Assembly: GCA_021648725.1 (NCBI GenBank)
Contig: JAKISF010000002.1
Location: forward strand, 96,002-160,001
Source: Bacteroidales bacterium
Lineage (GTDB): Bacteria; Bacteroidota; Bacteroidia; Bacteroidales; JAADGE01
Reading direction: 5' to 3'
Length of the DNA stretch: 64,000 nt
The position numbers were made by a program, and so were the translations under genes. Shown here piece by piece: positions 32,897 to 48,723 of the stretch (within the stretch, counting starts at the first letter, position 1; each line of letters opens with the position of its first letter). The notes under the pieces were generated by a model. The model saw nothing but the letters and a program-made list of their open reading frames with translations, made no database searches and had not been told where the DNA came from.

Positions 32897-32927
32897 TTTA
32901 TTTGCGAGTGAATACTAACTAACAAAT
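32897..32927 (+). promoter_or_regulatory. TetR-gene promoter region with first copy of a repeated element
   Basis: A near -7 box TTTATTTG (32897-32904) is followed by AGTGAATACTAACTAACAAA and one more base (32907-32927). The same 21 bases, with one change, occur before the transporter gene at 33557. Placement over the likely transcription start suggests an operator for the TetR protein, an inference. Confidence 0.45.
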
Positions 32928-32928
32928 T

Positions 32929-33507
32929 ATGTTGTCCGAAAGACAATCTCAAATTATTGATGAGTCGATAAAATTAATTGCTGAAAAAGGAATACAAGGT
33001 TTTACAATAAAAAACTTGTCAAAAGCAATCGGCATTTCAGAACCAGCAATTTATCGTCATTTCGACAGTAAAACACATATTTTGTTGGCTATTTTGGATA
33101 ACTTTAAACAAATGGCAAAATTTTTAGCAAAAATGATGTCCGAAATCCAAATAACAGCAGTAGAAAAAATATCTTTTATGTTTGAAAAAATGGTAGATTT
33201 ATTTACCGAAACGCCCTCGCTTGTTTCCGTTCTTTTTTCCGAAGAAATTTTTAAAAACGAAGAAGTTCTTAAACAAAAAATTGTTGAAATATTAAATACA
33301 AACGAATCAACTGTTGAAAACATTTTAATTGCCGGTCAAAAAAAGGGTGAAATAAGAACCGATGTAAGCGAAAAAACTCTTGCATTAATGGTTATGGGAT
33401 CACTGAGACTAATGGTAAAACGATGGAGCTTAGAAAATTACAATTTTAATTTGAAAAAGGAAGGAAAAATACTCATAGAGTCTATTAAAACAATATCATC
33501 TAAATAA
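32929..33507 (+). CDS. TetR/AcrR-family transcriptional regulator
   Basis: 192 residues. The N-terminal helix-turn-helix is clear: S-I-K-L-I-A-E-K-G-I-Q-G-F-T-I-K-N-L-S-K-A-I-G style residues 12-34, then S-E-P-A-I-Y-R-H-F-D-S-K. The C-terminal helical ligand domain is not distinctive. It lies 80 bases before an MMPL transporter gene on the same strand, and both genes are preceded by the same 21-base element. I therefore expect it to control its own gene and the transporter, probably responding to a lipid or hydrophobic ligand; the ligand is not readable. Confidence 0.87.
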   Translation: MLSERQSQIIDESIKLIAEKGIQGFTIKNLSKAIGISEPAIYRHFDSKTHILLAILDNFKQMAKFLAKMMSEIQITAVEKISFMFEKMVDLFTETPSLVSVLFSEEIFKNEEVLKQKIVEILNTNESTVENILIAGQKKGEIRTDVSEKTLALMVMGSLRLMVKRWSLENYNFNLKKEGKILIESIKTISSK

Positions 33508-33518
33508 AAACAAACTTG

Positions 33519-33534
33519 CGCATATTAGTATGCG
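33519..33534. repeat. Perfect palindrome between the TetR and MMPL genes
   Basis: CGCATA-TTAG-TATGCG, 6-base arms and a 4-base centre. It shares the core ATA(C/T)TAA (read on the opposite strand) with the repeated elements at 32907 and 33557. It could be a TetR operator or a short terminator, since a T-rich stretch follows. Confidence 0.4.
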
Positions 33535-33556
33535 TTTTATTTTACAAAACAAACGT

Positions 33557-33577
33557 AGTGAATATTAACTAACAAAT
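33557..33577 (+). promoter_or_regulatory. Second copy of the repeated element, before the MMPL gene
   Basis: Matches the element at 32907-32927 at 20 of 21 positions (C to T inside the ATA(C/T)TAA core). It ends 9 bases before the ATG. Candidate TetR operator. Confidence 0.45.
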
Positions 33578-33586
33578 AAAGATTAA

Positions 33587-35893
33587 ATGGAGAAATTATT
33601 AAATAAATTGTTGAAAGCCCCTTGGCTGATTATTGCATTAACGCTTATTATAAGCGGTGTGTTCTTTTATTATATGAAAGAAAACTCAAAAATGGAAACT
33701 GACCTTGACAAATACATGCCGCAAGATCATCCTGCATTTGTATTCAGCGATCAAGCAGAAGAATGGTTCGGAATTAACGACGGAATTATTGTTGCCATAG
33801 AAAATAAAAACGGAATTTTTAATTCTGAAACGCTTGATACTTTAAAGCAGCTCACAAAAAGGCTGCAAAAAATGGATGAGATTGAAAAAGAAGACGTAAC
33901 ATCCTTATACACCGCAGATAACATTGTCGGCTCAGAAGAAGGTATGGATGTAAGGGCTTTTTTCAAAAGAGTTCCTAAAACAGACAGCACCTTAAATGTT
34001 TTACAAGAAAATGTTAAAAACAATGAAATGGTATTCGGAAGACTTGTTTCAACAGACGAAACGGTTACTGTTATTATTGCCGAAATCAGAGATGATGTTT
34101 TTACACAGGAGTTTTACGGTGATATTTTGAAAACTGCTTCAAGTTTCCAAACAGACGACATAAAAATTCATGTTGCAGGTCGCCCGATTGTCGAAGGTAC
34201 AATGGCATTACTCGGTCCGGCAGATATGAAAAAAATGGTGCCTATTGTATTACTTGTAATTACAATTGTATTGTTTATAATGCTCAGAAGTGTAAAAAGC
34301 ACATTATTGACAATGAGTGTTGTCTTTTTCAGCACATTGTGGGCTTTCGGTTTAATGGCTTTAGTAAATGTTCCGATTTATGCCGTTTCAACAATGATTC
34401 CGGTAATGCTTATTGCAATCGGGGTTGCTGACGGTGTTCATCTATACAGCCACTTACACCTGTTTCAACGAAAAAATCCGGATGCAACGAAAAAAGAAGC
34501 AGTAAAAGACATGATAAAAAATATGTGGAAGCCGGTTGTAATGACATCAGTAACAACTTCCGTAGGGTTTATTTCACTGTTAACATCACAAGTTTACCCG
34601 ATTAAATATTTCGGTATTTTCACGGCATTCGGCGTAATGGCTGCCATGTTATTTTCTCTTTCTTTAATACCTGCCGGAATTATGGTGTTCGGCTTGCCGA
34701 AAATTAAAAAGGCTAAAGAAAATAAGGGGAAACACAATTCTCATATTGCGGACAAATTTGCAACAGCAGTAATAAAAAAAAGAAGTATTTCAATTATAGT
34801 AACAGCACTTATTATAATCGGCTCAATTGTCGGGATGCAAAAAATTTGGATAAATTCAAGTTTCCTTGAAAAATTTGAGAAAGACAGCGACATTGTAATG
34901 ACAGATAAATTTATTAACAGTCATTTCGGAGGAACAACAACACTTAATTTAATTCTTGACGCAGAAGGTAAAAAAGAAACATTTAAAGATCCCGAAGTTT
35001 TGAAACTTGTTGACAAAATGCAAAACAAAGTTGAATCAGAATTACAGGTTGTAGGTAACTCTTTTTCTCTGACTGATTATGTAAACAGAATGAACAAAGT
35101 AATGAATGCCGATAATGAAAAATTTAACGTAATCCCGGACACAAAAAACATGATTGCCCAATACCTTTTGCTTTATGAAATGTCCGGCGACCCTGAAAAC
35201 CTGAACAAAGTTGTTGATTATGATTACGAAAAACTTAATGTAACATTTCAGCTTAAAAGCGACAATTCTAAAGCAATAAATTCAACCCTTAAAGTTGTTA
35301 AAACTTTTGAGGACGATTTCAAAAAACTCGGAATAACTGTAAAATACGCCGGCAGTGGATACAAGGGGCTGGTATTTACAGACTTAATTCTTGAAGGCCA
35401 AATAATGAGTTTGATATTATCATTATTGATTGTTATTGTTTTATTGTCACTGATGTTTAAAAATATAAGATTAGGCTTAATTGGTGCAGTACCTATAGTT
35501 ATCACAGCTTTAATGAGTTTCGGAATAATGGGATTCTTAAATATTCCTTTAAATACAACAACAGCTCTATTATCGAGTATTGCAATAGGAATAGGAATTG
35601 ATTATGCCGTACATTTTATAGAACAATACAGAACAAATGCGAAAAAAACCGGAGACAAAATGTTGACAGCACAAAAAACAATGGCTCACTCAGGAAGAGC
35701 AATTATTTTTAATGCTGTTGTTGTCATAGTCGGGTTTATGGTTCTTACGTTTTCTGTATTCCCGCCGAACAGAGAGCTGGGAGCATTAGTTTCGCTTAAT
35801 ATGTTCACAAGTTTTGTAGGAACTTTGACTGTTATGTTGATTCTTTTATACAGCGGAAACTTATATTTTAAAAAGAAAAAAATTAATAACTAA
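33587..35893 (+). CDS. RND-superfamily (MMPL-type) transporter
   Basis: 768 residues in two similar halves, each with one membrane helix, a large periplasmic domain and five further helices. The first half begins at helix ~12-30 and continues with helices from about 215; the second begins around residue 400. The motif G-V-A-D-G-V-H-L-Y-S-H and its twin G-I-G-I-D-Y-A-V-H-F-I-E mark the proton-relay Asp helices of MMPL/HpnN-like proteins. Members of this group move lipids or hydrophobic molecules out of the inner membrane. The following genes encode a LolA-like protein (17 bases on) and outer-membrane proteins, and the next operon section makes lipids, so a lipid cargo is likely but inferred. 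Confidence 0.88.
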   Translation: MEKLLNKLLKAPWLIIALTLIISGVFFYYMKENSKMETDLDKYMPQDHPAFVFSDQAEEWFGINDGIIVAIENKNGIFNSETLDTLKQLTKRLQKMDEIEKEDVTSLYTADNIVGSEEGMDVRAFFKRVPKTDSTLNVLQENVKNNEMVFGRLVSTDETVTVIIAEIRDDVFTQEFYGDILKTASSFQTDDIKIHVAGRPIVEGTMALLGPADMKKMVPIVLLVITIVLFIMLRSVKSTLLTMSVVFFSTLWAFGLMALVNVPIYAVSTMIPVMLIAIGVADGVHLYSHLHLFQRKNPDATKKEAVKDMIKNMWKPVVMTSVTTSVGFISLLTSQVYPIKYFGIFTAFGVMAAMLFSLSLIPAGIMVFGLPKIKKAKENKGKHNSHIADKFATAVIKKRSISIIVTALIIIGSIVGMQKIWINSSFLEKFEKDSDIVMTDKFINSHFGGTTTLNLILDAEGKKETFKDPEVLKLVDKMQNKVESELQVVGNSFSLTDYVNRMNKVMNADNEKFNVIPDTKNMIAQYLLLYEMSGDPENLNKVVDYDYEKLNVTFQLKSDNSKAINSTLKVVKTFEDDFKKLGITVKYAGSGYKGLVFTDLILEGQIMSLILSLLIVIVLLSLMFKNIRLGLIGAVPIVITALMSFGIMGFLNIPLNTTTALLSSIAIGIGIDYAVHFIEQYRTNAKKTGDKMLTAQKTMAHSGRAIIFNAVVVIVGFMVLTFSVFPPNRELGALVSLNMFTSFVGTLTVMLILLYSGNLYFKKKKINN

Positions 35894-35909
35894 ATTAAAA
35901 TTAAACAAA

Positions 35910-36686
35910 ATGAAAAATTTAAAAATCACATCAATAGCAATTGCTGTATTAATGATAGCAAGCTTAGGTGCAAACGCACAATTAACAGGAAAGCAAATAG
36001 TAGAAAAAGCATATAACTTGCCTGCCGGAAAAGATAAAACGTCTGTTTTAACAATGACATTGACAAATAAACAAGGAAAACAAAGAGTTCGTAAAATAAA
36101 ACAGTTCTCAAAAGATATGGGAACTGTTGAAAAAAGCATTATGTTTTTTCAATCTCCGGCAGACGTAAAAAATACATCTTTTATGAGCTGGACTTATGAC
36201 AGTAACAAAGCTGACGACCAATGGATTTATTTACCGGCATTGAAAAAAACAAAACGTATTTCAAGCGACAGTAAAAGCGACTATTTTATGGGATCCGATT
36301 TTACTTATGACGATTTAGGAGACAGGAAATTAGATGCTGACAATCACAAGTTGCTTAAAACAGAAACAATTAACGGGCAAGCCTGTTATGTTGTTGAAAG
36401 TGTTTCAAAAGACGAAGACTATATGTACTCCAAAACTAAAACCTGGATTAATAAGTCAAATTTTGTCGGTGTTAAAAAAGAATTTTATGATGAAGACGAA
36501 GATCTGCTAAAAATACTGACAATTAAGAAAGTTCAAAAAATTTCAGGATTCTGGGTAATTACAAATTCAGAAATGAAAAATGTGCAAAAAAATCATAAAA
36601 CCTCAATGATATTAAATAATGTACAAATAAATACCGGCGTTTCAGATGCAAAATTTACTGAAAGAATGATGATGCGAGGATTATAA
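35910..36686 (+). CDS. LolA-like outer-membrane lipoprotein-sorting-type protein
   Basis: 258 residues. A signal peptide runs from M-K-N-L-K to about A-N-A-Q. The mature part matches the LolA_like (PF17131-type) family that accompanies MMPL transporters: D-Q-W-I-Y-L-P-A-L-K-K-T-K-R-I-S, D-Y-F-M-G-S-D-F-T-Y-D-D-L, and a late A-C-Y-V-V-E-S. The fold is a half barrel with a hydrophobic cavity that can carry a lipid through the periplasm. Its place directly after the transporter supports a shuttle role. Confidence 0.8.
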   Translation: MKNLKITSIAIAVLMIASLGANAQLTGKQIVEKAYNLPAGKDKTSVLTMTLTNKQGKQRVRKIKQFSKDMGTVEKSIMFFQSPADVKNTSFMSWTYDSNKADDQWIYLPALKKTKRISSDSKSDYFMGSDFTYDDLGDRKLDADNHKLLKTETINGQACYVVESVSKDEDYMYSKTKTWINKSNFVGVKKEFYDEDEDLLKILTIKKVQKISGFWVITNSEMKNVQKNHKTSMILNNVQINTGVSDAKFTERMMMRGL

Positions 36687-36711
36687 AACAATTTTTAGTT
36701 GACAATTAAGT

Positions 36712-36734
36712 GCACTCTCTTATTTTGAGAGTGC
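36712..36734 (+). terminator. Strong hairpin between the LolA-like and OMPLA-like genes
   Basis: GCACTCTC (36712-36719) pairs perfectly with GAGAGTGC (36727-36734) around a 7-base loop. There is no long T tail, so it may act as a partial terminator, an mRNA stabiliser or an attenuator. Its position also argues against the upstream GTG at 36710 as the start of the next gene. Confidence 0.55.
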
Positions 36735-36754
36735 CTTATAAAGATTTTAACACC

Positions 36755-37654
36755 GTGATTAAGAGCAATAAACAATATCAACATCTTATAATAATATATC
36801 TTTTTATCAGTATTATATCTTATCCTGTTAAAGCAGATACAATTCCGGATATTGATTTAATAACGATTGCACAAGTTAATCAGGGAAACAGTTATATTAC
36901 ATTCCCGACTGATATAGGGAATATAGAACCTTTATGGTTTGAAGGAAACTTAATCCCGAATTTTACGATACGTACAAATAAAGATGCCAGACTAGTTGGT
37001 GTATTAACACCTCAAGTAATAATAAGAATGTATCAAGAGGAATCTTTTCCGGTAAAAACACCAAGTTATATACCTCAAATAACGATGTATTACAAAATCT
37101 GTCGTGAAAATAAAAATAGCACTGTATTTGCCAGATTAGCGCATCACTCAAACGGACAAGACGGCGATTTTTACCTGGAAGACGGATTAATAAATTTACA
37201 ATCCGGTGATTTCTCAACACAATATTTTGAACTTGGATTAATAAGGTCATTTTATAATACTGATTTTAATGCAAGTCAATTCTTTCGAACATCTTTTCAA
37301 AAACATTTTTTCGAAATTGAGAACCTTCAAAACGGAATATTCAGTAAATATAGGTGGAATAACAGTTTTTCTGTATTTAAAATACGTCAGGATAAAACGG
37401 AATTTGCAAAGAAAAAAGCAGGCTTCTCAATTAAGCTGAATGCAGATTGGATGTTTGGTGATATTTATACATGGAGCAACAAATCAATCGACCGCTTAAA
37501 CATAGGGTTAACAGCATTTTATGCCCCGAGATTTTTAGAAGATATCGGTTTATTTGTTGAATTATATCACGGTCAGGACTATTACAATATTTATTTTAAC
37601 CAACAACTAAATGTAATTCGCTTTGGTATTATGACAGAGCTGTTACGATTTTAA
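36755..37654 (+). CDS. Outer-membrane phospholipase A-like protein
   Basis: 299 residues from GTG 36755; the alternative GTG 36710 falls in a hairpin. A signal peptide (hydrophobic run ending near V-K-A-D) is followed by a beta-barrel-like sequence. The segment A-R-L-A-H-H-S-N-G-Q-D-G matches the OMPLA active-site pattern H-x-S-N-G, whose His and Ser form the catalytic pair. The later Arg-rich S-R-S-W-N block of classical PldA is not seen, and S-T-Q-Y-F-E-L-G-L takes its place. It may hydrolyse phospholipids in the outer leaflet or be a barrel of the same fold without that activity. Confidence 0.6.
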   Translation: MIKSNKQYQHLIIIYLFISIISYPVKADTIPDIDLITIAQVNQGNSYITFPTDIGNIEPLWFEGNLIPNFTIRTNKDARLVGVLTPQVIIRMYQEESFPVKTPSYIPQITMYYKICRENKNSTVFARLAHHSNGQDGDFYLEDGLINLQSGDFSTQYFELGLIRSFYNTDFNASQFFRTSFQKHFFEIENLQNGIFSKYRWNNSFSVFKIRQDKTEFAKKKAGFSIKLNADWMFGDIYTWSNKSIDRLNIGLTAFYAPRFLEDIGLFVELYHGQDYYNIYFNQQLNVIRFGIMTELLRF

Positions 37655-37674
37655 AATTATTTAAATTAACTATA

Positions 37675-38916
37675 ATGAAAAAATTACAAACTATGCTATT
37701 CCTGTTAACATTAATGCTTGCAGGACAAGCACAAAATACCGAATACTCGGGATATATGAGAAATTATACGGGAGTACTGTTCGACTCCGGAGATTTATCA
37801 ATTTTGCAAAACACATTTAATTTCGATATTTCAAAAACCGGAGATAAAGTAGCGTTTAAGATAAACCCTATGTTATATCATTATTGGTCAGACAGTTTGG
37901 ATTTACGATTAAGAGAAGCATACCTTGACCTATATTTCAAAAACTTTGATATAAGAATAGGAAAACAGCAGGTTGTTTGGGGAAAAGCAGACGGAGTTTT
38001 CATAACCGACATAGTTTCGCCTCTTAACTTAACCGAATTTTTGTTGCCCGACTTTGATGAAATCAGAACAGGAGTAAATGCCGTAAAATTAGATTATTAC
38101 ATTGGCAACAATACACTTGAAGCAATCTGGATTCCTCAATTTACACCAACGGAAATTCCCGCAGAAGGCTCAATTTGGAACATTCAGCCTGAATTTCCCG
38201 CTCCCGCTTATTTCGACTGGTCAAACTCTACCATTAAACCAAGTTTAGAAAATAGTGAAGTATTTTTAAAATTTACGGCACTAACGTCTGCAATTGATTT
38301 TGAAATGATGGGCGGATATACTTGGGATGATAATCCGACTATGCACGTTCAAAAAGAATTCAGCATAAACCCGGAAACATTGCAACCGATGCTGACTCAA
38401 TTAAACATTACTCCGAAACATCACAGGTTGTATCTTGCGGGAGCATCTTTCAGCACCGAAATAAAGGGTGTTATTTTTAGAGGCGAGGGGGCATATTACA
38501 ACGGAAAATATTTTCAAACTGAAGATCCTTTCGCAACAGATGCTTTGGTTGGGAAAGATTATTTGCATTATTTACTCGGAGCAGATTTTAATATCGGAAA
38601 TGTCAAGCTGAGTACGCAGTTTATTCAACAAACGATCTTAGACTATGACGAAAACATATTAAATCCTGAATTTGAAAACACAATGACATTTATGGCGCGT
38701 TATGATATGTTTCGAGAAACTGTTCATTTAGAATTGTTCTCATACATCGGTCTAACTTATGAAGATGCACTCATCAGACCTAAAGTTTCCTATGATTTTG
38801 ATGACAGTTTTAACATACAACTCGGCTCAAACATCTTTGTCGGCGAACGTGACGGCAGGTTTGGGCAATATCAAGACAATTCAATGTTATATTTAAAATT
38901 GAAATATAGCTTTTAA
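37675..38916 (+). CDS. DUF1302-like outer-membrane beta-barrel protein
   Basis: 413 residues. A signal peptide ends at A-G-Q-A-Q. The body is a barrel with alternating strands, the run R-I-G-K-Q-Q-V-V-W-G-K-A-D-G-V-F, then D-I-V-S-P-L-N-L-T-E, as in DUF1302 proteins, and a C-terminal aromatic end (L-K-L-K-Y-S-F). DUF1302 proteins are often encoded with MMPL transporters and are thought to act in export of a hydrophobic substrate. Here it follows the OMPLA-like gene by 20 bases. Confidence 0.68.
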   Translation: MKKLQTMLFLLTLMLAGQAQNTEYSGYMRNYTGVLFDSGDLSILQNTFNFDISKTGDKVAFKINPMLYHYWSDSLDLRLREAYLDLYFKNFDIRIGKQQVVWGKADGVFITDIVSPLNLTEFLLPDFDEIRTGVNAVKLDYYIGNNTLEAIWIPQFTPTEIPAEGSIWNIQPEFPAPAYFDWSNSTIKPSLENSEVFLKFTALTSAIDFEMMGGYTWDDNPTMHVQKEFSINPETLQPMLTQLNITPKHHRLYLAGASFSTEIKGVIFRGEGAYYNGKYFQTEDPFATDALVGKDYLHYLLGADFNIGNVKLSTQFIQQTILDYDENILNPEFENTMTFMARYDMFRETVHLELFSYIGLTYEDALIRPKVSYDFDDSFNIQLGSNIFVGERDGRFGQYQDNSMLYLKLKYSF

Positions 38917-38939
38917 AAACATCAACTAAATTTTTATAT

Positions 38940-39359
38940 ATGTATAAGATAATAATAACAATATCATTAATAATATTCTCTATATCACAAACATTCGCTC
39001 AAAAAGCCGATGCGATTGTAGGCAAATATCACCTTCCTAACAGTTTAGACCTGGAAATATTTGAACACAATAATAAATATTTCGGAAGAATAATAGCATT
39101 AAACGGATATGAAGACGGGCAAACAACAGATTATAAAAACCCTAATAAAACAAAACGTAAAGACCAATTAATCGGAAAAGTGATTATTACTAATTTAGAG
39201 TATGACACAGAAGAAAAAGAATGGGTAAACGGTAAAATGTACGGCCCTGAAAAAGGCATGTATTTCGATATTAAAATAACAGACGTGAGGCCAAAAGAAA
39301 TTGAGATACAAGCCTCAAAATATTTTTTTCGGAAAACGGCAGAATGGGAAAAAATCTAA
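38940..39359 (+). CDS. DUF2147-family secreted protein
   Basis: 139 residues. A signal peptide runs to about T-F-A-Q. The lipocalin-like strand pattern G-K-Y-H-L, G-R-I-I-A-L, L-I-G-K-V-I-I-T-N-L and W-V-N-G-K-M-Y-G-P-E-K-G-M-Y-F fits DUF2147. The function of this family is not established, but a small hydrophobic ligand is plausible. It sits between the DUF1302 barrel and the CDP-alcohol phosphatidyltransferase, 12 bases before the latter. Confidence 0.7.
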   Translation: MYKIIITISLIIFSISQTFAQKADAIVGKYHLPNSLDLEIFEHNNKYFGRIIALNGYEDGQTTDYKNPNKTKRKDQLIGKVIITNLEYDTEEKEWVNGKMYGPEKGMYFDIKITDVRPKEIEIQASKYFFRKTAEWEKI

Positions 39360-39371
39360 AAAATTAAAAAA

Positions 39372-40067
39372 ATGTCTTCAAAAAAAATCTGGGATAAGGT
39401 AAAATCAAATGCTTATAAAGCATTGAAACCTTTTATTAATTTACTAAGTAAGAGTGGAATAACACCCAATATGATTACAACTATCGGCTTGTTGATTACA
39501 GTTTTATCAACAATTGTTTTAATTATGGGGGCTGAAATAGGAGAACGAGGAGACACGAGATATATAACGTGGTTTGGCGGCATATTATTATTTGCCGGGG
39601 TTTTTGATATGTTGGACGGACAATTAGCCAGAATTACCAAAAAAATGTCAACATTCGGTGCCTTTTATGACTCTGTTGTTGACAGATACAGTGAGATGAT
39701 TATGTTTTTCGGAATTGCTTACTATTTGGTATCATTTGATTACTTTTTGAGTTCAATTTTTACATTTATAGCAATGATCGGTTCTATAATGGTTAGCTAT
39801 ACAAGAGCCAGAGCCGAAGCATTAAATACAGAATGTAAAGTCGGACTGATGCAACGCCCGGAAAGAGTCCTTACAATTGGAATTTCTGCAATTTTATACG
39901 GCCTCATATCTTATTTTACCGGTGATTTTAAAATTATCGTTGATTGGCTCCCCTTTCCTTTTATAGAAAACATATCCATTTTTACGATACCGATTTTTAT
40001 AATGGCAATTCTCACAAACTATACAGCATTTCAAAGGTTAAATCATTGTTATAAAAAAATGAAATAA
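39372..40067 (+). CDS. CDP-alcohol phosphatidyltransferase, probable phosphatidylinositol-phosphate synthase
   Basis: 231 residues with about six membrane helices. The family signature is complete: D79-M-L-D82-G83-Q-L-A-R87 then G96-A-F-Y-D100-S-V-V-D104. These enzymes transfer a phosphatidyl group from CDP-diacylglycerol to an alcohol. The adjacent inositol-3-phosphate synthase (20 bases) and PgpA-type phosphatase point to inositol 1-phosphate as acceptor, giving phosphatidylinositol phosphate. The acceptor is inferred from neighbours; phosphatidylglycerophosphate synthase is the alternative. Confidence 0.78.
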   Translation: MSSKKIWDKVKSNAYKALKPFINLLSKSGITPNMITTIGLLITVLSTIVLIMGAEIGERGDTRYITWFGGILLFAGVFDMLDGQLARITKKMSTFGAFYDSVVDRYSEMIMFFGIAYYLVSFDYFLSSIFTFIAMIGSIMVSYTRARAEALNTECKVGLMQRPERVLTIGISAILYGLISYFTGDFKIIVDWLPFPFIENISIFTIPIFIMAILTNYTAFQRLNHCYKKMK

Positions 40068-40086: not shown

Positions 40087-41403
40087 ATGAATACAAAACA
40101 AAATGTTACAAAACCTGTCGGAAAATTAGGAGTCCTTACACCCGGTTTAGGTGCAGTTTCAACCACATTTATGGCAGGGGTGTTTGCTGCACGAAAAGGT
40201 CTGGGAAAACCAATCGGCTCCATTGCTGAAATGGGAAAAATTCGATTAGGTAAAAGAACAGAGAATAAAAATCCTAATGTAAAAGATTTCGTACCCTTAG
40301 CATCTATGGATGATATGGTTTTCGGCGGATGGGATATATTTTCAGAAAACACATATGATGCAGCTATGAGAGCAGGAGTATTGGATAAGAACTTACTTTA
40401 TAATCTTAAAGATGAGATGTCTGCTGTAAAACCGATGTCTGCTGTTTTTGACCATGATTTTGTAAAAAATATTGATGGTAAGAATATAAAACATGAAAAA
40501 ACAAAAATGGATTCTGCTAATGCTTTAATAGCAGACATCAAACAGTTTAAGACAGAAAATAATTGTGACAGAATGGTTATGATTTGGTGTGCTTCTACCG
40601 AAGTATATACTGAAGAATCAGAAATTCACCAAACCATTGAAAAATTTGAAAAAGCTTTAAAGGAAAATCATCCGGCTATTTCACCAAGTATGATCTATGC
40701 TTATGCATCAATTAAAAGCGGAGTTCCGTTTGCAAACGGAGCACCAAACCTGACGATTGATATTCCTGCAATAATAGAATTATCAAAACAATTAAATGTT
40801 CCGATTGCAGGGAAAGATTTTAAAACGGGTCAAACATTAATGAAAACAATATTAGGTCCCGGGTTAAAAACACGTTTGTTAGGTATTGACGGTTGGTTTT
40901 CTACAAACATACTTGGGAATAGAGATGGTGAAGTTTTAGATGATGCAGGTGCATTTAAAACAAAAGAAGTTTCAAAACTAAGTGTTTTGGATAGCATATT
41001 AGAACCTGAACAATACCCGGAGCTATATAAAAACATGTATCATAAAGTAAGAATTAACTATTATCCGCCGAAAGGAGATGATAAAGAAAGTTGGGATAAT
41101 ATAGATATATTCGGTTGGTTGGGATACAAAATGCAGATTAAAGTTAATTTTCTATGTAAAGACTCTATTCTTGCAGCTCCTGTTGTTCTTGATTTAGCAT
41201 TATTTATGGATTTGGCTCAAAGGTCTGAAATGAGCGGAATACAAGAATGGTTGTCATTTTATTTTAAATCACCTCAAACAGTTAAAGGTTTAGAGCCGAT
41301 TCATGATATTTTCTTACAAAAAATAAAATTTGAAAATACATTACGTCATATAATGGGGGAAACATTAATTACACATTTAGGATTAGATTATTACGAAGAA
41401 TAA
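40087..41403 (+). CDS. ino1: Inositol-3-phosphate synthase
   Basis: 438 residues. It isomerises glucose 6-phosphate to inositol 3-phosphate with bound NAD. The Rossmann start L-G-V-L-T-P-G-L-G-A-V-S-T-T and the later D-F-K-T-G-Q-T with I-L-G-N-R-D-G mark the family. It supplies the polar head for inositol lipids and abuts the PgpA gene (stop TAA 41401-41403, start ATG 41404), so they are co-transcribed. Many bacteria lack this enzyme, so its presence is informative. Confidence 0.93.
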   Translation: MNTKQNVTKPVGKLGVLTPGLGAVSTTFMAGVFAARKGLGKPIGSIAEMGKIRLGKRTENKNPNVKDFVPLASMDDMVFGGWDIFSENTYDAAMRAGVLDKNLLYNLKDEMSAVKPMSAVFDHDFVKNIDGKNIKHEKTKMDSANALIADIKQFKTENNCDRMVMIWCASTEVYTEESEIHQTIEKFEKALKENHPAISPSMIYAYASIKSGVPFANGAPNLTIDIPAIIELSKQLNVPIAGKDFKTGQTLMKTILGPGLKTRLLGIDGWFSTNILGNRDGEVLDDAGAFKTKEVSKLSVLDSILEPEQYPELYKNMYHKVRINYYPPKGDDKESWDNIDIFGWLGYKMQIKVNFLCKDSILAAPVVLDLALFMDLAQRSEMSGIQEWLSFYFKSPQTVKGLEPIHDIFLQKIKFENTLRHIMGETLITHLGLDYYEE

Positions 41404-41880
41404 ATGAAAACATACAAACTAATAGCATCAGGGTTAGGAACAGGATACTCTCCAGTTGCCCCGGGAACAGCAGGTTCTATTCTCGGAATATTAATTTTAT
41501 ATTTATTCAACTATGGATTGAATTATTATAATATTCATGAAATTACGGTTGTTGTTCTTAATCTTGTTGTTTTAGTTTTAGTTCTTTTAATTGGTGTTTA
41601 TTCTATAAAAAGAGTGCATGAAGTTTGGGAACATGATGCCGGTAAAATTGTAATTGATGAAATTGTCGGTGTATGGATTGCAGTTTTAATTGTACCGTTT
41701 CATTGGCAATATTATCTTATCGGTTTAATCTTATTTCGATTTTTTGATATCTTAAAACCATTTTATATAAGAAAATTAGACCGCCTTAAAAGCGACTGGA
41801 GCGTAATGCTTGATGATGTCTTAGCCGGAGTATATGCAAATATTGTTTTACAAATAATTGTTTATTTCTATGTTTTATAA
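41404..41880 (+). CDS. pgpA: PgpA-type phosphatase, probable phosphatidylinositol-phosphate phosphatase
   Basis: 158 residues. PgpA landmarks are present: S-G-L-G-T-G-Y-S-P-V-A-P-G-T-A-G-S near the start, D-E-I-V-G-V-W-I-A, R-F-F-D-I-L-K-P-F and D-D-V-L-A-G-V-Y-A-N. There are four membrane segments. Classical PgpA removes phosphate from phosphatidylglycerophosphate. Between the inositol-lipid genes it more probably dephosphorylates phosphatidylinositol phosphate to phosphatidylinositol, a substitution described for Bacteroides. It overlaps the GtrA gene. Confidence 0.83.
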   Translation: MKTYKLIASGLGTGYSPVAPGTAGSILGILILYLFNYGLNYYNIHEITVVVLNLVVLVLVLLIGVYSIKRVHEVWEHDAGKIVIDEIVGVWIAVLIVPFHWQYYLIGLILFRFFDILKPFYIRKLDRLKSDWSVMLDDVLAGVYANIVLQIIVYFYVL

Positions 41881-42274
41881 GTCGGATAAAAAACCAAACA
41901 TACTTATTTCTTTTTTTCGCTACAATATTTCAGCAATTATAGCAACGGCTGTTGACTTTACAATTTTAATAGGCCTGACAGAGATATTTCAACTTTGGTA
42001 TTTCCTTTCTGCCGTAATCGGGGCAATTGCCGGAGGAATTGTTGCTTTTCTGTTTTCAAGAAATTGGGTTTTTAAAAAACGTGACGGTAAGATAGCAACA
42101 CAAGCTTTAAAGTATATATTGGTGTGGGGAACAAGTATTTTTTTAAATACATATGGACTTTATCTTTTTGTTGAATACCTCAATTTTCATTATATCATTT
42201 CAAAAGTTATTGTGGCAGTAATCATCGGCATAGGATTTAATTTTTTTATGAACAAATATTTTATTTTTAAATAG
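41870..42274 (+). CDS. GtrA-family membrane protein
   Basis: 134 residues with four membrane helices (about 15-35, 43-62, 77-97, 104-124). The motif G-I-V-A-F-L-F-S-R-N-W-V-F and the end N-K-Y-F-I-F match GtrA, small proteins thought to flip polyprenyl-linked sugars or lipids. I chose ATG 41870, which overlaps the pgpA stop by 11 bases; a TTG at 41858 is less likely. In this operon it may help move an inositol- or glycosyl-lipid between leaflets, an inference. Confidence 0.8.
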   Translation: MFYKSDKKPNILISFFRYNISAIIATAVDFTILIGLTEIFQLWYFLSAVIGAIAGGIVAFLFSRNWVFKKRDGKIATQALKYILVWGTSIFLNTYGLYLFVEYLNFHYIISKVIVAVIIGIGFNFFMNKYFIFK

Positions 42275-42283
42275 TTAGTCTGA

Positions 42284-44833
42284 ATGAGAACAAATTGGAT
42301 TACATATATTGCCATTTTAAGTATAAGCCTGTTGTTGGTTTCAAGGTCAACAGTCTATTCACAAAAAATGACTCATATCAAAGGAAAAGTTATCGATGCA
42401 AAAACCAAAGAACCGATACCTTTTGCTAATGTTATTTTTGTCGGTAAAAATATCGGCACAATCACAGACTATAAGGGAGAATATTCGTTAGAAACTCAAT
42501 GGCCTTCAAATAAAATTCAGGCATTATACATGGGGTACTATAGTAAGTATAGTGATATTATACCTGAAAAAAATCAAATTGTTAATTTTGAGTTAGACCC
42601 TGAAAATTATATACTGGATGAGGTCGTGGTGTCTTCAAAAAGAAAAAGATACCGAAACAAGGATAATCCTGCTGTTACTCTGATCAGAAAAGTTATTGAA
42701 CATAAAAATGTAAACAGAAAAGAAAGTTTGGATTTTTATGAGTATGACCAATATGAAAAAATAGAATTTGACATTAATAATATTACTGAGGGGTTTAGAA
42801 ATAAACGAGTTTTTAAAAATTTTCAATTTGTCTTTGATTATGTGGATACCTCGTCAATAAACGGGAAACCATATTTGCCGATATTTTTGCAAGAGAATTT
42901 ATCAAAAGTATATTATCAAAAATCACCAAAGTCTGAAAAAGAATACATAACAGGAACAAATATTGTCGGTTCAAGAGAATATGTTGATAATGACGGAATC
43001 AGTATGATGACCGATTATTTATATGAAGACATTGATATATATGACAACAACATTCCTTTATTGACAAATGAATTTGTAAGTCCCTTATCAAATATTTCTC
43101 CGGCTATCTATAAATTCCGTATAATGGATACTGTAGATATTAACGGTTACGATTGTATTAAGCTTGCATTTCAACCAAGAAATAAATTAGATTTTGCTTT
43201 TAAAGGGACTTTGTATATTAAAAATGACAGTAGTTATGCCGTGATTAAAGCAAAACTACAATTAACTGACGGTATAAACTTAAATTTCGTGAATGACCTT
43301 CAAATTGTTCAAGAGTTTAGTTTTGAAAACAATCAATGCTGGGTACTAACAAAAGATGAGTTGGTTATCGATTTCAATGTAAGAAAAAAAGGAGCCGGGA
43401 TGTTCGGGAAAAAGACGGTTCATTTCGACAACTATTTATTTAATAAAGAAAGGGCGGAAGAACTATATTCAGGAATTGATAATGTTATTAAAGAAGACGG
43501 TTTTGATCAAAGAAAGAAAGAATTTTGGGAAAAAGAAAGGCTGACAAAATTATCAGAACAAGAAGAGAATATTTTTAAAATGGTTGACAGTGTTCAAAGT
43601 TTACCTGCTTTTAAAAAAACCATGGATATATTAATGTTGTTAGTTGCCGGTTATTGGGAGTTCGGAAAAGTAAATGTCGGACCGGTAAATACATTTTATA
43701 GCTTTAATGATGTTGAAGGTTTTCGTTTTAGATTAGGAGGCAGAACAGGTGATAAATTTAGTGAACATTTAAGACTAGACGGTTATCTGTTATATGGCTT
43801 TAATGATGAACGCTTTAAATATTCAGGAAGTGCAAAATGGTCGCTTAATAAAAAGCCGTTAAAGGAATACCCGGTACACTCTATAATGGCAATGTATCAA
43901 GTAGAAACAAATTTTCCGGGTATGGAAATGCAGTTTATTAATGAAGATAACTTTTTACTGTCATTCAAACGAGGGGTCGCCGATAAACTGTTATATTATA
44001 AAATGTTTAAAATTGAGCCTTTCAAAGATTGGGGAAACGGTTTTTCAACAACGGTAAACTTAAAACACATTATTCAAGAACCGGGAGGAACATTGCATTT
44101 TGACTATGATGATTTTTCTTTAAATGAAATAACCTCAAGTGAAATTTCAGCAATATTACGATTTGCCCCGAATGAAAAATTTTACCAAGGAATTAACTAT
44201 AGAACCCAAATTATTTCTAAATACCCGGTATTTCAATTATCCTACACTCAAGGAATAAAAGATGTTTTCAATTCTGATTTTAATTATGGTAAATTATCGT
44301 TTAATGTATTTAAACGTTTTCACCTTTCACCAATCGGATTTACTAATTTTGAATTTGAAGCAGGAAAAGCGTTCGGAGAGGAAATTCCTTATCCTTTACT
44401 ATTTATTCATCGTGCGAATCAGACCTATTCCTACCAACTGCATTCATATAACATGATGAATTTTCTTGAATTCATAAGTGATCAATACATTGCTGTTTAT
44501 GCTGAACATAATTTCTATGGCTTTTTCTTTAATAAAATACCTTTGATAAAACGGCTTAAACTGCGAGAAACAATATCATTTAAAGCAATAAAAGGGAATG
44601 TAACTGATAAAAATAATCCATTAATAACAGACGGATTAATGAACTTCCCGACAGACATTGACGGAAACACTTCTACATTTACTTTAACAAGTGAACCCTA
44701 TGTTGAAGTAAGTGTAGGTGTCGGGAATATATTCAAATTTTTCAGGGTTGATTTAATTAAAAGAGTTACTTATCTGGATAACCCGAATGTTTCAGAATAC
44801 GGTATCCGAGCAAGATTTAAATTTGATTTTTAA
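42284..44833 (+). CDS. DUF5686 outer-membrane protein with carboxypeptidase-regulatory-like domain
   Basis: 849 residues. A signal peptide (hydrophobic run from about 6 to 24) is followed by a carboxypeptidase D regulatory-like domain (I-K-G-K-V-I-D-A-K-T-K-E-P-I-P-F-A-N-V-I-F-V) and a long region with D-E-V-V-V-S-S-K-R-K-R-Y-R-N-K-D-N-P-A-V, typical of DUF5686. The C-terminal half alternates barrel strands and ends in F-K-F-D-F. These are outer-membrane proteins of unknown function. It is 3 bases from the serine palmitoyltransferase start, so it belongs to this lipid operon. Confidence 0.8.
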   Translation: MRTNWITYIAILSISLLLVSRSTVYSQKMTHIKGKVIDAKTKEPIPFANVIFVGKNIGTITDYKGEYSLETQWPSNKIQALYMGYYSKYSDIIPEKNQIVNFELDPENYILDEVVVSSKRKRYRNKDNPAVTLIRKVIEHKNVNRKESLDFYEYDQYEKIEFDINNITEGFRNKRVFKNFQFVFDYVDTSSINGKPYLPIFLQENLSKVYYQKSPKSEKEYITGTNIVGSREYVDNDGISMMTDYLYEDIDIYDNNIPLLTNEFVSPLSNISPAIYKFRIMDTVDINGYDCIKLAFQPRNKLDFAFKGTLYIKNDSSYAVIKAKLQLTDGINLNFVNDLQIVQEFSFENNQCWVLTKDELVIDFNVRKKGAGMFGKKTVHFDNYLFNKERAEELYSGIDNVIKEDGFDQRKKEFWEKERLTKLSEQEENIFKMVDSVQSLPAFKKTMDILMLLVAGYWEFGKVNVGPVNTFYSFNDVEGFRFRLGGRTGDKFSEHLRLDGYLLYGFNDERFKYSGSAKWSLNKKPLKEYPVHSIMAMYQVETNFPGMEMQFINEDNFLLSFKRGVADKLLYYKMFKIEPFKDWGNGFSTTVNLKHIIQEPGGTLHFDYDDFSLNEITSSEISAILRFAPNEKFYQGINYRTQIISKYPVFQLSYTQGIKDVFNSDFNYGKLSFNVFKRFHLSPIGFTNFEFEAGKAFGEEIPYPLLFIHRANQTYSYQLHSYNMMNFLEFISDQYIAVYAEHNFYGFFFNKIPLIKRLKLRETISFKAIKGNVTDKNNPLITDGLMNFPTDIDGNTSTFTLTSEPYVEVSVGVGNIFKFFRVDLIKRVTYLDNPNVSEYGIRARFKFDF

Positions 44834-44835
44834 AT

Positions 44836-46047
44836 ATGAAAAATATGAGACAACTTCAACAAAAATATTCAAAGTTTAACATCCCTCAGCTTGCAAAGAA
44901 AAAAGGGATTTATCCTTTTTATCACCCGATTGAATCAGGGCAAGATGCAGTAGTAAAGCTTAAAGGGAAAGATGTATTAATGTTTGGTTCAAACAGTTAC
45001 CTTAGCTTAACCAATCATCCGGAACTAAAAAAAGCTGCAAAAACTGCTATAGATAAGTACGGTACCGGAGCTTCAGGTTCAAGGTTAATGAATGGAAACC
45101 TTGATTTGCATGAAGAACTCGAAATTAAATTAGCAGATTTTGTTAAAAAGCCTGCAGCAACTGTATTCAGTACAGGTTTTCAAACCAATATCGGCACAAT
45201 TTCTACAGTTGTAGGACGAAATGATTATATTATTTCTGATGAAAAAAATCATGCATCCATTATAGAGGGAACCAGATTAACCTACGGAAAAACGCTGAAA
45301 TATCGCCATAACGATATGGGCTCTCTGGAAAAGGTTCTTCAAAAAACAGATAAAAATCAAATAACATTGATTGTCACAGACGGGATATTCAGCATGGAAG
45401 GCGATATTGCTCAGATGGATAAAATTTGTGATTTAGCCGATAAATATTCAGCATCCGTTATGGTTGATGATGCCCATGCTCTTGGAGTGTTGGGTGCTAA
45501 GGGTGAAGGAACAGCTGCGGAATTTAATGTGACCGATAAAACAGATCTTATTATGGGAACATTCAGTAAAACACTTGCCTCTCTCGGTGGTTTTGTTGCA
45601 GGAGATTTTGAAACGATTAATTACATTAAGCATCATGCTCGGTCTTTGATTTTTAGTGCGAGTATTCCGCCGGCTTCAGCGGCAACAGTTTTAAAAGCCT
45701 TAGAAATAATAAAAGCTGAACCTGAAAGAATCAGTCGTTTATGGGATAATACGAATTATGCGAAAAAATGCCTTCAACAAGAAAACTTTGACATCGGGAA
45801 TAGTGAATCGCCCATTATACCCATTTTTATAGGAAATGATATTAATACCTTTGTCTATTCATCAATGTTATTGGAAAATGGGGTATATGTAAATCCGGTT
45901 GTTCATCCGGCAGTTGCAAAAGATCAGGGGATTCTCAGATTTTCTTTAATGACGAATCACACAAAAGAACAAATCGAAATAGCTGTTGAAAAACTTGTGA
46001 AAAGCAGAGCTCAAATTGAAAAAATTAAAATCCCACAATTTAGTTAA
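44836..46047 (+). CDS. spt: Serine palmitoyltransferase (PLP-dependent)
   Basis: 403 residues of the alpha-oxoamine synthase family. It condenses serine with an acyl thioester to 3-ketosphinganine, the first step of sphingolipid synthesis. Visible sites are N-S-Y-L-S-L, the stacking histidine H139 in K-N-H-A-S, D211-D-A-H214-A-L-G and the PLP lysine K245 in G-T-F-S-K. The N-terminus Y-P-F-Y-H-P-I-E-S-G-Q matches Bacteroidota SPT rather than KBL or BioF. The neighbouring GNAT and reductase genes complete a ceramide pathway. Confidence 0.87.
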   Translation: MKNMRQLQQKYSKFNIPQLAKKKGIYPFYHPIESGQDAVVKLKGKDVLMFGSNSYLSLTNHPELKKAAKTAIDKYGTGASGSRLMNGNLDLHEELEIKLADFVKKPAATVFSTGFQTNIGTISTVVGRNDYIISDEKNHASIIEGTRLTYGKTLKYRHNDMGSLEKVLQKTDKNQITLIVTDGIFSMEGDIAQMDKICDLADKYSASVMVDDAHALGVLGAKGEGTAAEFNVTDKTDLIMGTFSKTLASLGGFVAGDFETINYIKHHARSLIFSASIPPASAATVLKALEIIKAEPERISRLWDNTNYAKKCLQQENFDIGNSESPIIPIFIGNDINTFVYSSMLLENGVYVNPVVHPAVAKDQGILRFSLMTNHTKEQIEIAVEKLVKSRAQIEKIKIPQFS

Positions 46048-46048
46048 T

Positions 46049-47176
46049 ATGAAAAATGTTAAAATAACAGAGGTAAAGTCCAAATCAGACCTCAAAAAAT
46101 TTATTAGTTTTCCCGATAAGTTGTATAAAGGTAATAAATATAGAGTGCCGCAGTTGCATTCTTTTGAAAGATCTACATTATCGAAAAAAAAGAATCCTGC
46201 TTTTGATTTTTGCGAATCAAAATATTGGTTAGCCTATAAAGATGATAAACTTGCAGGGAGAATTGCCGGAATTATCAATCATAAATCAAATGAGATTTGG
46301 AAAGAGAAAAATATGCGTTTCGGATGGATTGATTTTATAGATGATATCGAAGTTTCATCTGCTTTGATTAAAACAGTAGAAAGCTGGGCAAAAGAAAATG
46401 AACTGACGGCAGTGCACGGCCCTTTAGGCTTCTCAGATATGGATCTAGAAGGAATGTTGGTAGAAGGTTTTGATGAAATCGGAACTCAGGCGACACTGTA
46501 TAATTACTCCTATTATCCGGTTCATATAGAGAAACTCGGCTATGTAAAAGATGTTGATTGGGTTCAGTCCGAAATTAAAGTGCCGAAAAAAGTACCTGAA
46601 AGGGTCAAGCGTATCAGTAATATCGTTTTAAAAAAATATGATTTAAGAATATTAAAGGCAAAAAAAGCAAAAGATGTTTTACCCTATGCTAAGAGTATGT
46701 TCGAAACTCAGAATAAATCCTTTGCTCACCTTTACGGTTATGTTCCGCTTACAGAGAAACAAATAGATTATTATGCGAAAGAATATTTTTCACTGATAAA
46801 TACTAAATATGTATGTTTTGTATTAGATAAGAATGACGAAGTTGTTGGTTTCGGTATAACAATTTTATCATTGTCAAAAGCCTTACAAAAAGCCAAAGGA
46901 AAGTTATTCCCTTTCGGATTTATCAAAATATTGAAGGCTTTAAAGAAGAATGATACTGTAGATATGTTTTTACAGGGTGTAAGGCCTGATTATATTAAAA
47001 AAGGAGTGGCTGCTGTTTTCTTCAATGAGTTAATGCAAGCTTATATTGATAACGGTATTAAAACAGCAATTACAAGCCATGCCTTAGAAAATAATAGTGC
47101 TGCTACTCAGATATTTAGTGTTTATAATAGCCGCCAACATATACGGAGACGAGCATATATAAAAAAAGATATTTAA
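46049..47176 (+). CDS. GNAT-like acyltransferase, probable bacterial ceramide synthase
   Basis: 375 residues from M-K-N-V-K-I-T-E-V. The start 46049 is one base past the SPT stop; an earlier in-frame start would overlap SPT. It has the pattern of the large GNAT-like proteins next to bacterial SPT: L-Y-K-G-N-K-Y-R-V-P, Y-W-L-A-Y-K-D-D-K-L-A-G-R-I, G-P-L-G-F-S-D-M-D and an end N-S-A-A-T-Q-I-F...R-Q-H-I-R-R-R-A-Y. In Caulobacter a protein of this type and size N-acylates the sphingoid base. The same role is inferred here from family resemblance and position. Confidence 0.68.
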   Translation: MKNVKITEVKSKSDLKKFISFPDKLYKGNKYRVPQLHSFERSTLSKKKNPAFDFCESKYWLAYKDDKLAGRIAGIINHKSNEIWKEKNMRFGWIDFIDDIEVSSALIKTVESWAKENELTAVHGPLGFSDMDLEGMLVEGFDEIGTQATLYNYSYYPVHIEKLGYVKDVDWVQSEIKVPKKVPERVKRISNIVLKKYDLRILKAKKAKDVLPYAKSMFETQNKSFAHLYGYVPLTEKQIDYYAKEYFSLINTKYVCFVLDKNDEVVGFGITILSLSKALQKAKGKLFPFGFIKILKALKKNDTVDMFLQGVRPDYIKKGVAAVFFNELMQAYIDNGIKTAITSHALENNSAATQIFSVYNSRQHIRRRAYIKKDI

Positions 47177-47188
47177 TAAGAAATAACA

Positions 47189-48181
47189 GTGAAAAAAATT
47201 TTAATTACCGGTGCTGGGGGTTTTATCGGAGGTTTTCTTGTTGAGGAAGCTTTGAAAAGGAACTATGAAGTATATGCAGGCATCAGAAGTACAAGTTCGA
47301 AAACTTATCTGACACACCCGGATATTAAGTTTCTTAATGTGGACTTATCAGATAAAAATGTACTGTGTGAGAAATTAAGAACCTTTGATAAGTTCGATTA
47401 TGTGATTCACAATGCCGGAATTACTAAAGCACTAAAAAAGGAAGATTTTGACAAGGTTAATTTTAAAAGCACACAAAACCTTATAGAGGCTTTAAACGAA
47501 ACGGTCGGTTTTCCTGATAAATTTATTTACATCAGCAGTCTTGAAGCTTTTGGCCCCGGAAATGAAGATACTCTTCAACCGATAAAAGATTCAGACGACC
47601 CAAAACCGATTTCAAAATATGGAGAAAGTAAATTGAAAGCAGAGCGGTATATTAAATCTATTGAAACTCTTCCACATTTAATTTTCAGACCGACAGGTGT
47701 ATACGGCCCTCGAGAAAAAGATTACTTCCTTTTATATAAAGGAGTTAAAATGGGAATTGAAACATATGTCGGCACATCTGAACAATACATTACTTTTATA
47801 TATGTAAAAGATTTAGCTCGTTTGATTTTTGATGCAGTTGAATCAACGGTTTCAGGCAAATCCTATTTTGCAACAGATTTGAAACAATACACAGCCAAAG
47901 AATTTAATAATGTTGTAAAAGAACAATTAAACAAAAAAACCATTCGAATTATTTTCCCTAAACTTTTTGTTAAGACCTTAGCTTTTATAAACGAAAAAAT
48001 ATATTCTGTTTTTAGGAAAGTTCCGACTTTAAACACTGAAAAATATAAAATAATTTCCTGTAAAAACTGGCTTTGTGACAGTAGTGCGATTAGAAATGAT
48101 TTTGGGTTTATTCCCAAATATGATTTAAAAAAAGGCATTAAAGAAGCAATTACTTGGTACAAAAAAGAAAAATTACTCTAA
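47189..48181 (+). CDS. NAD-dependent epimerase/dehydratase-family protein, probable ketosphinganine/ceramide reductase
   Basis: 330 residues of the extended SDR family, starting at GTG. It has the dinucleotide motif I-T-G-A-G-G-F-I-G-G and the active-site Y-G-E-S-K with upstream S-S-L-E-A-F-G. In Caulobacter the CerR reductase of ceramide synthesis is of this family, and its gene lies near spt. Here the place between the GNAT-like gene and the PAP2 gene supports reduction of the keto group of the sphinganine or ceramide. A sugar-nucleotide epimerase is the alternative. Confidence 0.7.
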   Translation: MKKILITGAGGFIGGFLVEEALKRNYEVYAGIRSTSSKTYLTHPDIKFLNVDLSDKNVLCEKLRTFDKFDYVIHNAGITKALKKEDFDKVNFKSTQNLIEALNETVGFPDKFIYISSLEAFGPGNEDTLQPIKDSDDPKPISKYGESKLKAERYIKSIETLPHLIFRPTGVYGPREKDYFLLYKGVKMGIETYVGTSEQYITFIYVKDLARLIFDAVESTVSGKSYFATDLKQYTAKEFNNVVKEQLNKKTIRIIFPKLFVKTLAFINEKIYSVFRKVPTLNTEKYKIISCKNWLCDSSAIRNDFGFIPKYDLKKGIKEAITWYKKEKLL

Positions 48182-48186
48182 TACGA

Positions 48187-48723
48187 ATGAAAATAATTAT
48201 TTCAATATTAATTATATGCTTCGGATTGTTAACATTACAACTTCCGGCTCAAAACGATTATCCTATTCCTGAAAAAAACAAGGAATTACTGTTTTATATT
48301 CAACGAAATCATAATAAGAATACAATAATCTACGATGCAAATTTTGACAGAGACGGAAATCTTATTGATAATAAACCGATAAATGTATACTGGGTCAGAT
48401 ATGAAGAGCAAGGGCAAAAAATGGAATTGCGTGCAATTGAAAAGAAATTTGCATATGGTTTAGAATTTAAAAAAATAAAATCACATAAGCATTATTATCA
48501 AATTGAACTTGTTGCATACGATAAGCGAAAACTTTGGTTAAAACAAGAAGCACCCTACAAGGCAGCGGTTTATATGATGATTAACGGTAAATTAGCTCTT
48601 TTGGAGCGTCAATATATTTTTGCAGATAACTCCGGGCTATGGCCGGATGTTAAATACATAGAGCTATTCGGGAAAGATATTGTAACAAATGAGAATAGAT
48701 ATGAAAAAATAATAAACAATTAG
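48187..48723 (+). CDS. DUF4833-family secreted protein
   Basis: 178 residues from M-K-I-I-I-S-I. A signal peptide ends near L-P-A-Q-N. The core contains Y-I-Q-R-N-H-N-K-N-T-I-I-Y-D-A-N, P-I-N-V-Y-W-V-R-Y and A-V-Y-M-M-I-N-G, a beta-rich domain that I recognise as DUF4833. Its function is unknown. The longer in-frame start at 48154 lies inside the upstream gene and was rejected. It is 5 bases past the reductase stop and 17 before the PAP2 gene, so a role with lipid head-group transfer or transport is likely. Confidence 0.65.
   Translation: MKIIISILIICFGLLTLQLPAQNDYPIPEKNKELLFYIQRNHNKNTIIYDANFDRDGNLIDNKPINVYWVRYEEQGQKMELRAIEKKFAYGLEFKKIKSHKHYYQIELVAYDKRKLWLKQEAPYKAAVYMMINGKLALLERQYIFADNSGLWPDVKYIELFGKDIVTNENRYEKIINN

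Follow-up and report, generated by a model that had tools for sequence, protein, structure and literature searches.

The window analysed here is a stretch of 64,000 nucleotides from a Bacteroidales bacterium (contig JAKISF010000002.1, positions 96,002 to 160,001 of the forward strand), in which six genes at positions 32929-39359, encoding a TetR repressor and a candidate transport module, run directly into an inositol-sphingolipid operon. The link between module and operon is not a matter of chance, as judged from a putative TetR operator that precedes both, even in genomes where the two lie on separate contigs. We propose that a FadR-like TetR regulon, presumably acting through binding of the TetR to this palindrome, probably joins an amphiphile transport module resembling AmeABCD to the synthesis of inositol sphingolipids. 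What was observed are the genes and operator-like sites, with their distribution, and the co-occurrence of sites with the TetR; the direction and substrate of transport are suggested by analogy with known systems. The first-pass annotation of this DNA had listed the six genes in the order TetR, MMPL/RND, LolA-like, OMPLA-like, DUF1302 and DUF2147, which was confirmed, with Pfam support for five of them, and had counted 12 bases between DUF2147 and a phosphatidyltransferase gene, which is exactly the distance to the start at 39372. The module and its sites are as follows.

32904-32923, + strand: putative operator 1, GCGAGTGAATACTAACTAAC, 5 bp before the TetR start codon (matrix score 31.8)
32929-33507, + strand: TetR-family repressor, 192 aa, with a FadR/YsiA-like C-terminal domain (PF00440, 2e-13; PF08359, 4.8e-10)
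33554-33573, + strand: putative operator 2, CGTAGTGAATATTAACTAAC, 13 bp before the MMPL start codon (matrix score 24.6)
33587-35893, + strand: MMPL/RND inner-membrane pump, HAE3-like, 768 aa (PF03176 in two stretches, 1.5e-44)
35910-36686, + strand: LolA-like soluble periplasmic carrier, 258 aa, with a signal peptide (PF17131, 4.8e-65; DUF1329, 1.1e-9)
36710-37654, + strand: OMPLA-like outer-membrane barrel, 314 aa, with an HHSNG motif (AlphaFold model, pLDDT 75.6; PDB fold matches)
37675-38916, + strand: DUF1302 outer-membrane barrel, 413 aa (PF06980, 8.6e-19; barrel model, pLDDT 86.5)
38940-39359, + strand: DUF2147 protein, 139 aa, with a signal peptide (PF09917, 2e-16)

The sequences that immediately precede tetR and the pump gene are near-identical in the window (GTGAATAyTAACTAACAAAT). 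By a pattern check, the core TGAATANTAACTAAC has two perfect copies in the 3.24-Mb genome, one ahead of tetR and one ahead of the pump gene, the former being operator 1. Stand-alone modules have matching sites before tetR and again before the pump gene, and the 20-bp palindrome has the consensus GTTAGTgaATAyTaACTAAC, that is, GTTAGT-N8-ACTAAC with an nTAn centre. We take this palindrome to resemble the operator of Bacillus FadR, which would fit the FadR-like domain of the TetR; the best NCBIfam match of the latter is the Bacillus-type FadR, at 70 bits against a cut-off of 200. Similar palindromes also lie beside other TetR genes of this subfamily, at loci L277, L278, L280 and L282, some of them before other exporter-like genes.

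We trained an operator matrix on 48 distinct sites from stand-alone modules, none of which came from a lipid operon. Strong sites were found 36-46 bp before the gene for PIP synthase, the first of the lipid operon, in five genomes (G002, G012, G443, G070 and G302; scores 19.3-22.2), with a further site 141 bp before it in G458 (score 21.8) and weaker sites at 53-61 bp in G005, G006 and G007 (scores 10.0-14.1). Ten control lipid operons scanned with the same matrix contained no site, all scores being below 3, and 377 kb of background contained none at a score of at least 15. Lipid operon and module are on different contigs in G070 and G458, each with operators. The three operator-type operons that have no site of their own (those of the window, G011 and G437) sit directly behind the module or its TetR, while G443 has two TetR copies, one with operators directly before the PIP synthase gene and the second before the pump gene of the module. 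A TetR ortholog was present in all eleven searched genomes with the module or the operator and was absent from the ten controls. The operator-type operons all fall into a single clade (support 100/99), in which G070 and G302 branch first, so that co-regulation may be older than the adjacency of module and operon. It was on finding operators before the PIP synthase gene that we dropped an earlier reading of the co-occurrence counts, namely that the module is simply unrelated to sphingolipids.

Several points weigh against a shared regulon. The sites in G005, G006 and G007 are too weak to stand alone, and the lipid operon of the window has no separate operator, depending instead on presumed read-through. 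The operator-type operons being a single clade, their sites do not count as separate events, and since TetRs of this kind also precede other pumps, a shared operator need not mean a shared function.

A terminator-like hairpin stands between tetR and the pump gene (window 33518-33535) and would split the two into different transcripts, each then having an operator of its own; the region contains such hairpins at close to the frequency expected by chance. Scans of the window for promoters (sigma-70 and Bacteroidota) gave chance-level counts and were not used.

Under the proposed regulon, the module would be a self-contained trans-envelope system for amphiphiles or lipids, made of an HAE3 pump, a LolA-like carrier and a DUF1302 barrel, with the OMPLA-like barrel and DUF2147 as frequent extras. 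By homology with AmeABCD and with the DUF1302/DUF1329 set of Pseudomonas putida, a proton-driven pump would work with a soluble lipid-binding carrier and an outer-membrane barrel. The local FadR-like TetR would repress the module by binding the palindromic operators before tetR and the pump gene. In one Bacteroidales clade, the inositol-sphingolipid operon appears to have come under the control of this repressor, in some genomes through its own copy of the operator and in others, such as the window, through a position directly behind the module, from whose promoter it would be read. A membrane-active hydrophobic signal would most likely release the TetR, and the derepressed cell would then both move amphiphiles across its envelope and make inositol sphingolipids, as one response that remodels the outer membrane.

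With 152.8 bits against a Pfam cut-off of 20.5 and two repeats of PF03176, the pump belongs to the MMPL family; its best subfamily match is TIGR00921 (HAE3), full length at 248.7 bits, under the cut-off of 351.9, and its nearest solved relative by sequence is the distant HpnN (2.9e-13). The carrier scores 219 bits with PF17131 (LolA_like) and 38.5 bits with DUF1329 (cut-off 23.1), its sole Pfam matches, with no match to the LolA family proper; it also matches the solved structure PDB 9tp6 (6.8e-61). The folds nearest to the DUF1302 model are porin, AlgE and Occ-type barrels, its PDB matches being generic porins.

Among the closest known systems is AmeABCD of Castellaniella defragrans, with the HAE3 pump AmeD, the LolA-superfamily protein AmeB and the DUF1302 protein AmeA (PMC6394551). 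Both systems have an HAE3-type pump, a periplasmic protein of the LolA/DUF1329 superfamily and a DUF1302 outer-membrane barrel. They differ in that none of the six genes of the window resembles AmeC (COG4447, a second periplasmic protein), DUF2147 or the OMPLA-like gene being present instead, and in that the carrier of the window is a LolA_like PF17131 protein and not a full DUF1329 protein. The window module further adds the OMPLA-like protein, DUF2147 and a TetR with palindromic operators, and it is linked to sphingolipid genes, whereas Ame is linked to terpene genes. In P. putida, the fitness of a DUF1302/DUF1329 pair correlates with that of an efflux pump and a periplasmic protein (PP_0765/PP_0766 and PP_2018/PP_2019; PMC10866462), although there the genes are at two loci, the phenotype concerns Tween 20 and there is no sphingolipid context. 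HpnN shares the HAE3/MMPL pump type but functions with no periplasmic or outer-membrane partner encoded alongside it (PMC6394551). In Caulobacter, a second Lpt set, LptC2/F2/G2, was proposed for sphingolipid transport (PMC11324152), and is likewise a candidate route from inner to outer membrane beside biosynthetic genes; it is an ABC/Lpt bridge, in contrast to the RND pump and soluble carrier of the window module, which has no Lpt-like gene. We regard the module as a transport cassette of a known kind whose regulatory setting is new.

The envelope crossing of bacterial sphingolipids is described as unknown and their transporters as unidentified (PMC11324152, PMC11087976), and the two B. thetaiotaomicron inositol-lipid papers use the word "transport" zero times. 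We found no paper tying an RND/DUF1302 module or its TetR to sphingolipid genes, which is weak evidence, as preprints and most subscription journals were outside the search. A repressor site common to a transport module and an inositol-sphingolipid operon would offer a direct way into this envelope crossing, with the pumpless genomes described below as natural controls. It also corrects the simple view that the product of a gene set has to be carried by its neighbour.

The genes downstream of the module form an inositol-sphingolipid operon, as judged from protein family matches: the expected NCBIfam models were the best ones for PIP synthase, serine palmitoyltransferase (SPT) and the PAP2 synthase, each under its curated cut-off.

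39372-40067, + strand: PIP synthase, BT1523-like, first gene of the operon (NF052561, PIPSynBT1523, 312 bits, cut-off 350)
40087-41403, + strand: myo-inositol-1-phosphate synthase (MIPS; PF07994, 8.5e-104)
41404-41880, + strand: PgpA-like phosphatase (PF04608)
41858-42274, + strand: GtrA-like protein (PF04138)
42284-44833, + strand: CarboxypepD-reg and DUF5686 outer-membrane protein, 849 aa (PF18939, 7.3e-59)
44836-46047, + strand: SPT (NF047600, SerpalmtaseCFB, 604 bits, cut-off 640)
46016-47176, + strand: GNAT acyltransferase-like protein (Pfam)
47189-48181, + strand: epimerase/ceramide-reductase-like protein (Pfam)
48154-48723, + strand: DUF4833 protein (Pfam)
48741-49658, + strand: PAP2 phosphoinositol-dihydroceramide synthase, last gene (NF052609, 331 bits, cut-off 480)

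PIP synthase, MIPS, PgpA and the PAP2 synthase all occur in this one set by Pfam and NCBIfam, as in a cluster of the BT1522-1526 type. The inositol-lipid cluster BT_1522-BT_1526 of B. thetaiotaomicron has homologs of PIP synthase, MIPS, PgpA, GtrA and PAP2 (PMC9246714), to which the operon of the window adds SPT, GNAT, epimerase, DUF5686 and DUF4833. Unlike the window, the BT-like inositol-lipid clusters that we checked had neither the TetR operator nor the module.

Co-occurrence of the module with sphingolipid genes was scored in 295 genomes of the order, with SPT called at E 1e-105 or better, a cut-off that sets SPT apart from same-family enzymes at about 40% identity. A pump ortholog was present in 44 of these genomes, SPT in 100 and PIP synthase in 18. 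The expectation of the first-pass annotation that the module would accompany spt across genomes failed, as the module is found mostly elsewhere: only seven of the 44 pump-bearing genomes have SPT and three have PIP synthase, and SPT is commoner among the other genomes (93/251; odds ratio 0.32, p 0.006). With SPT missing at this cut-off from 37 of the 44, the general substrate of the module is therefore probably not a sphingolipid. Among 99 relatives, pump orthologs (at least 51% identity) were found in 26 and SPT orthologs in 34, with seven genomes common to both.

In Bacteroidota and neighbouring phyla, the module stands as a unit of its own. Its recurrent gene order is TetR-(cupin)-MMPL-LolA-(metallophosphoesterase, 206-aa protein)-(OMPLA)-DUF1302-(DUF2147) in a flanking context that varies by genome; the unit TetR-MMPL-LolA-(OMPLA)-DUF1302-(DUF2147) occurs in many families of the order, and the module also at loci that carry the labels Ignavibacteriales, Melioribacteraceae, KSB1 and Calditrichota. 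Since this gene order and composition recur in dozens of genomes, the module itself is not a chance assembly. An inositol-lipid operon lies within 10 kb of it in four of 80 GTDB loci: G002 and G012, from the genus of the window, G437, and G443, where the order is reversed. Adjacency is confined to this genus and a few other genomes. A search of 50 such genomes for MIPS found a window-type gene in three (G437, G443 and G458), which in G458 is on a contig other than that of the module. One locus with SPT at 7 kb from the module (L145) was not counted as a linkage, the gene being on the opposite strand and without inositol genes. The common operator, which the first-pass annotation did not mention, is nevertheless a real tie between module and operon.

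In the genus of the window, seven genomes contain the lipid operon, and the OMPLA-like gene adjoins it in all seven. One of them, G011, has the arrangement TetR-OMPLA-DUF2147-lipid operon, the pump, carrier and DUF1302 genes being gone, and its best pump match genome-wide reaches just 7.7e-10. G302 also has the lipid operon, with the TetR and its operator and a DUF2147 neighbour kept, and no pump ortholog was found in this genome. The operon therefore occurs without the pump in two genomes. In G302, an MlaE-MlaF-MlaD-like set precedes the lipid operon on the same strand (L097, 2849-6562), which could be an alternative lipid transporter.

In phylogenetic trees, the pump of the window falls among stand-alone modules from other families, apart from the linked genomes of its genus, and both pump and carrier are nearer to their counterparts in genomes that have no sphingolipid genes than to the linked ones of the genus. 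The DUF1302 and OMPLA-like proteins of the window, by comparison, group with the linked genomes of the genus. Pump and carrier are therefore exchangeable parts, swapped between lineages. An approximately unbiased (AU) test rejected a single clade of all linked pumps (p 6e-5) and mildly rejected one of the linked pumps of the genus (p 0.018). While the linked pumps are not one clade, we do not claim three separate origins of linkage; G437 and G443 were dropped as independent linkages, as the tree of the lipid operon nests both with G002.

An alternative is that, in the operator clade, the pump, carrier and OMPLA-like or DUF1302 barrel became a dedicated route for inositol sphingolipids, switched by the TetR together with synthesis. 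The pump would extract the lipid from the inner membrane, the LolA-like protein would carry it and the DUF1302 or the OMPLA-like barrel would insert it into the outer membrane. Adjacency in the genus of the window, in G437 and, reversed, in G443 speaks for such an exporter, as do the common operator, the reported transport of hopanoids by HpnN (PMC6394551) and the fact that no sphingolipid transporter has been identified so far (PMC11087976). If true, it would be the first sphingolipid exporter built on an RND pump, as far as the literature found shows. We nevertheless consider it doubtful, given the pump-bearing genomes without SPT, the retention of the lipid operon without the pump in G011 and G302, the closeness of the pump and carrier of the window to those of sphingolipid-free genomes and the BT-like clusters without the module. 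Of the lipid route across the envelope that the first-pass annotation had proposed, the trans-envelope lipid or amphiphile module is thus upheld by homology, and its specificity for sphingolipids is not.

It is improbable that the module pumps out detergents, fatty acids or solvents and that the lipid operon was inserted behind it by chance in one lineage, without a functional tie. The module is indeed widespread without sphingolipid genes, and G008 has the module together with the right flank of the window, without the OMPLA-like gene, DUF2147 or the lipid operon, so that the operon represents an insertion or deletion at this site. Chance would not account for operators before the PIP synthase gene in unlinked genomes, for a TetR in the genomes with operator-type operons and not in the controls, or for adjacency in more than one arrangement.

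We assign a similarly low probability to an inward module for the uptake of fatty acids or lipids, in which the OMPLA-like protein frees acyl chains and the TetR senses acyl-CoA, feeding sphingolipid synthesis: the FadR/YsiA-like domain of the TetR, the OMPLA fold and the requirement of the P. putida DUF1302/DUF1329 genes for growth on Tween 20 (PMC10866462) would fit it, but HAE3 pumps of known function export (AmeD, HpnN; PMC6394551), many modules have no OMPLA-like gene, and the OMPLA-like copy of the window has Gln in place of a conserved Asn.

The 314-aa protein of the window has no Pfam match of its own, including to PF02253, which four of 13 relatives match weakly (best 5.3e-5), and a PDB sequence search with the OMPLA-like profile gave nothing useful. 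For its predicted fold, the top eight PDB matches are all OMPLA (E 7.6e-6, TM-score 0.52-0.53 by query length). The residues H145-H146-S147-N148-G149 are invariant in the OMPLA-like alignment (H-x-S-N-G motif). Residue 171 (window 37220-37222) is Gln in the window copy and a nearly invariant Asn, in an FSTN motif, in relatives. We presume that HHSNG and position 171 correspond to His142/Ser144/Asn156 of E. coli OMPLA. Given Gln171, the protein of the window may have reduced lipase activity or none. The GTG start of its gene is uncertain. OMPLA-like genes also occur without an HAE3 pump, adjoining a metallophosphoesterase pair in L088 and L090, and in L090 and L277 such a gene adjoins an apparent AcrB-type RND pump.

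Other genes recur around the module. The metallophosphoesterase and the 206-aa protein, of unassigned family, occur jointly inside it in L056, L059, L098, L135, L145 and L151, and a BT-like inositol-lipid cluster has distant homologs of both (32%) behind PAP2 (L236, 10001-12498). A three-gene set with a Fer4_5 membrane ferredoxin lies beside or inside the module in L059 (287-4205), L130, L154, L164 and L166, with an LpxR-like gene in L059. In G002 and G005 (L046, 4642-12021; L049, 6244-12263), a GNAT gene about 48% identical to that of the operon adjoins a distant paralog (about 30%) of the pump-carrier module.

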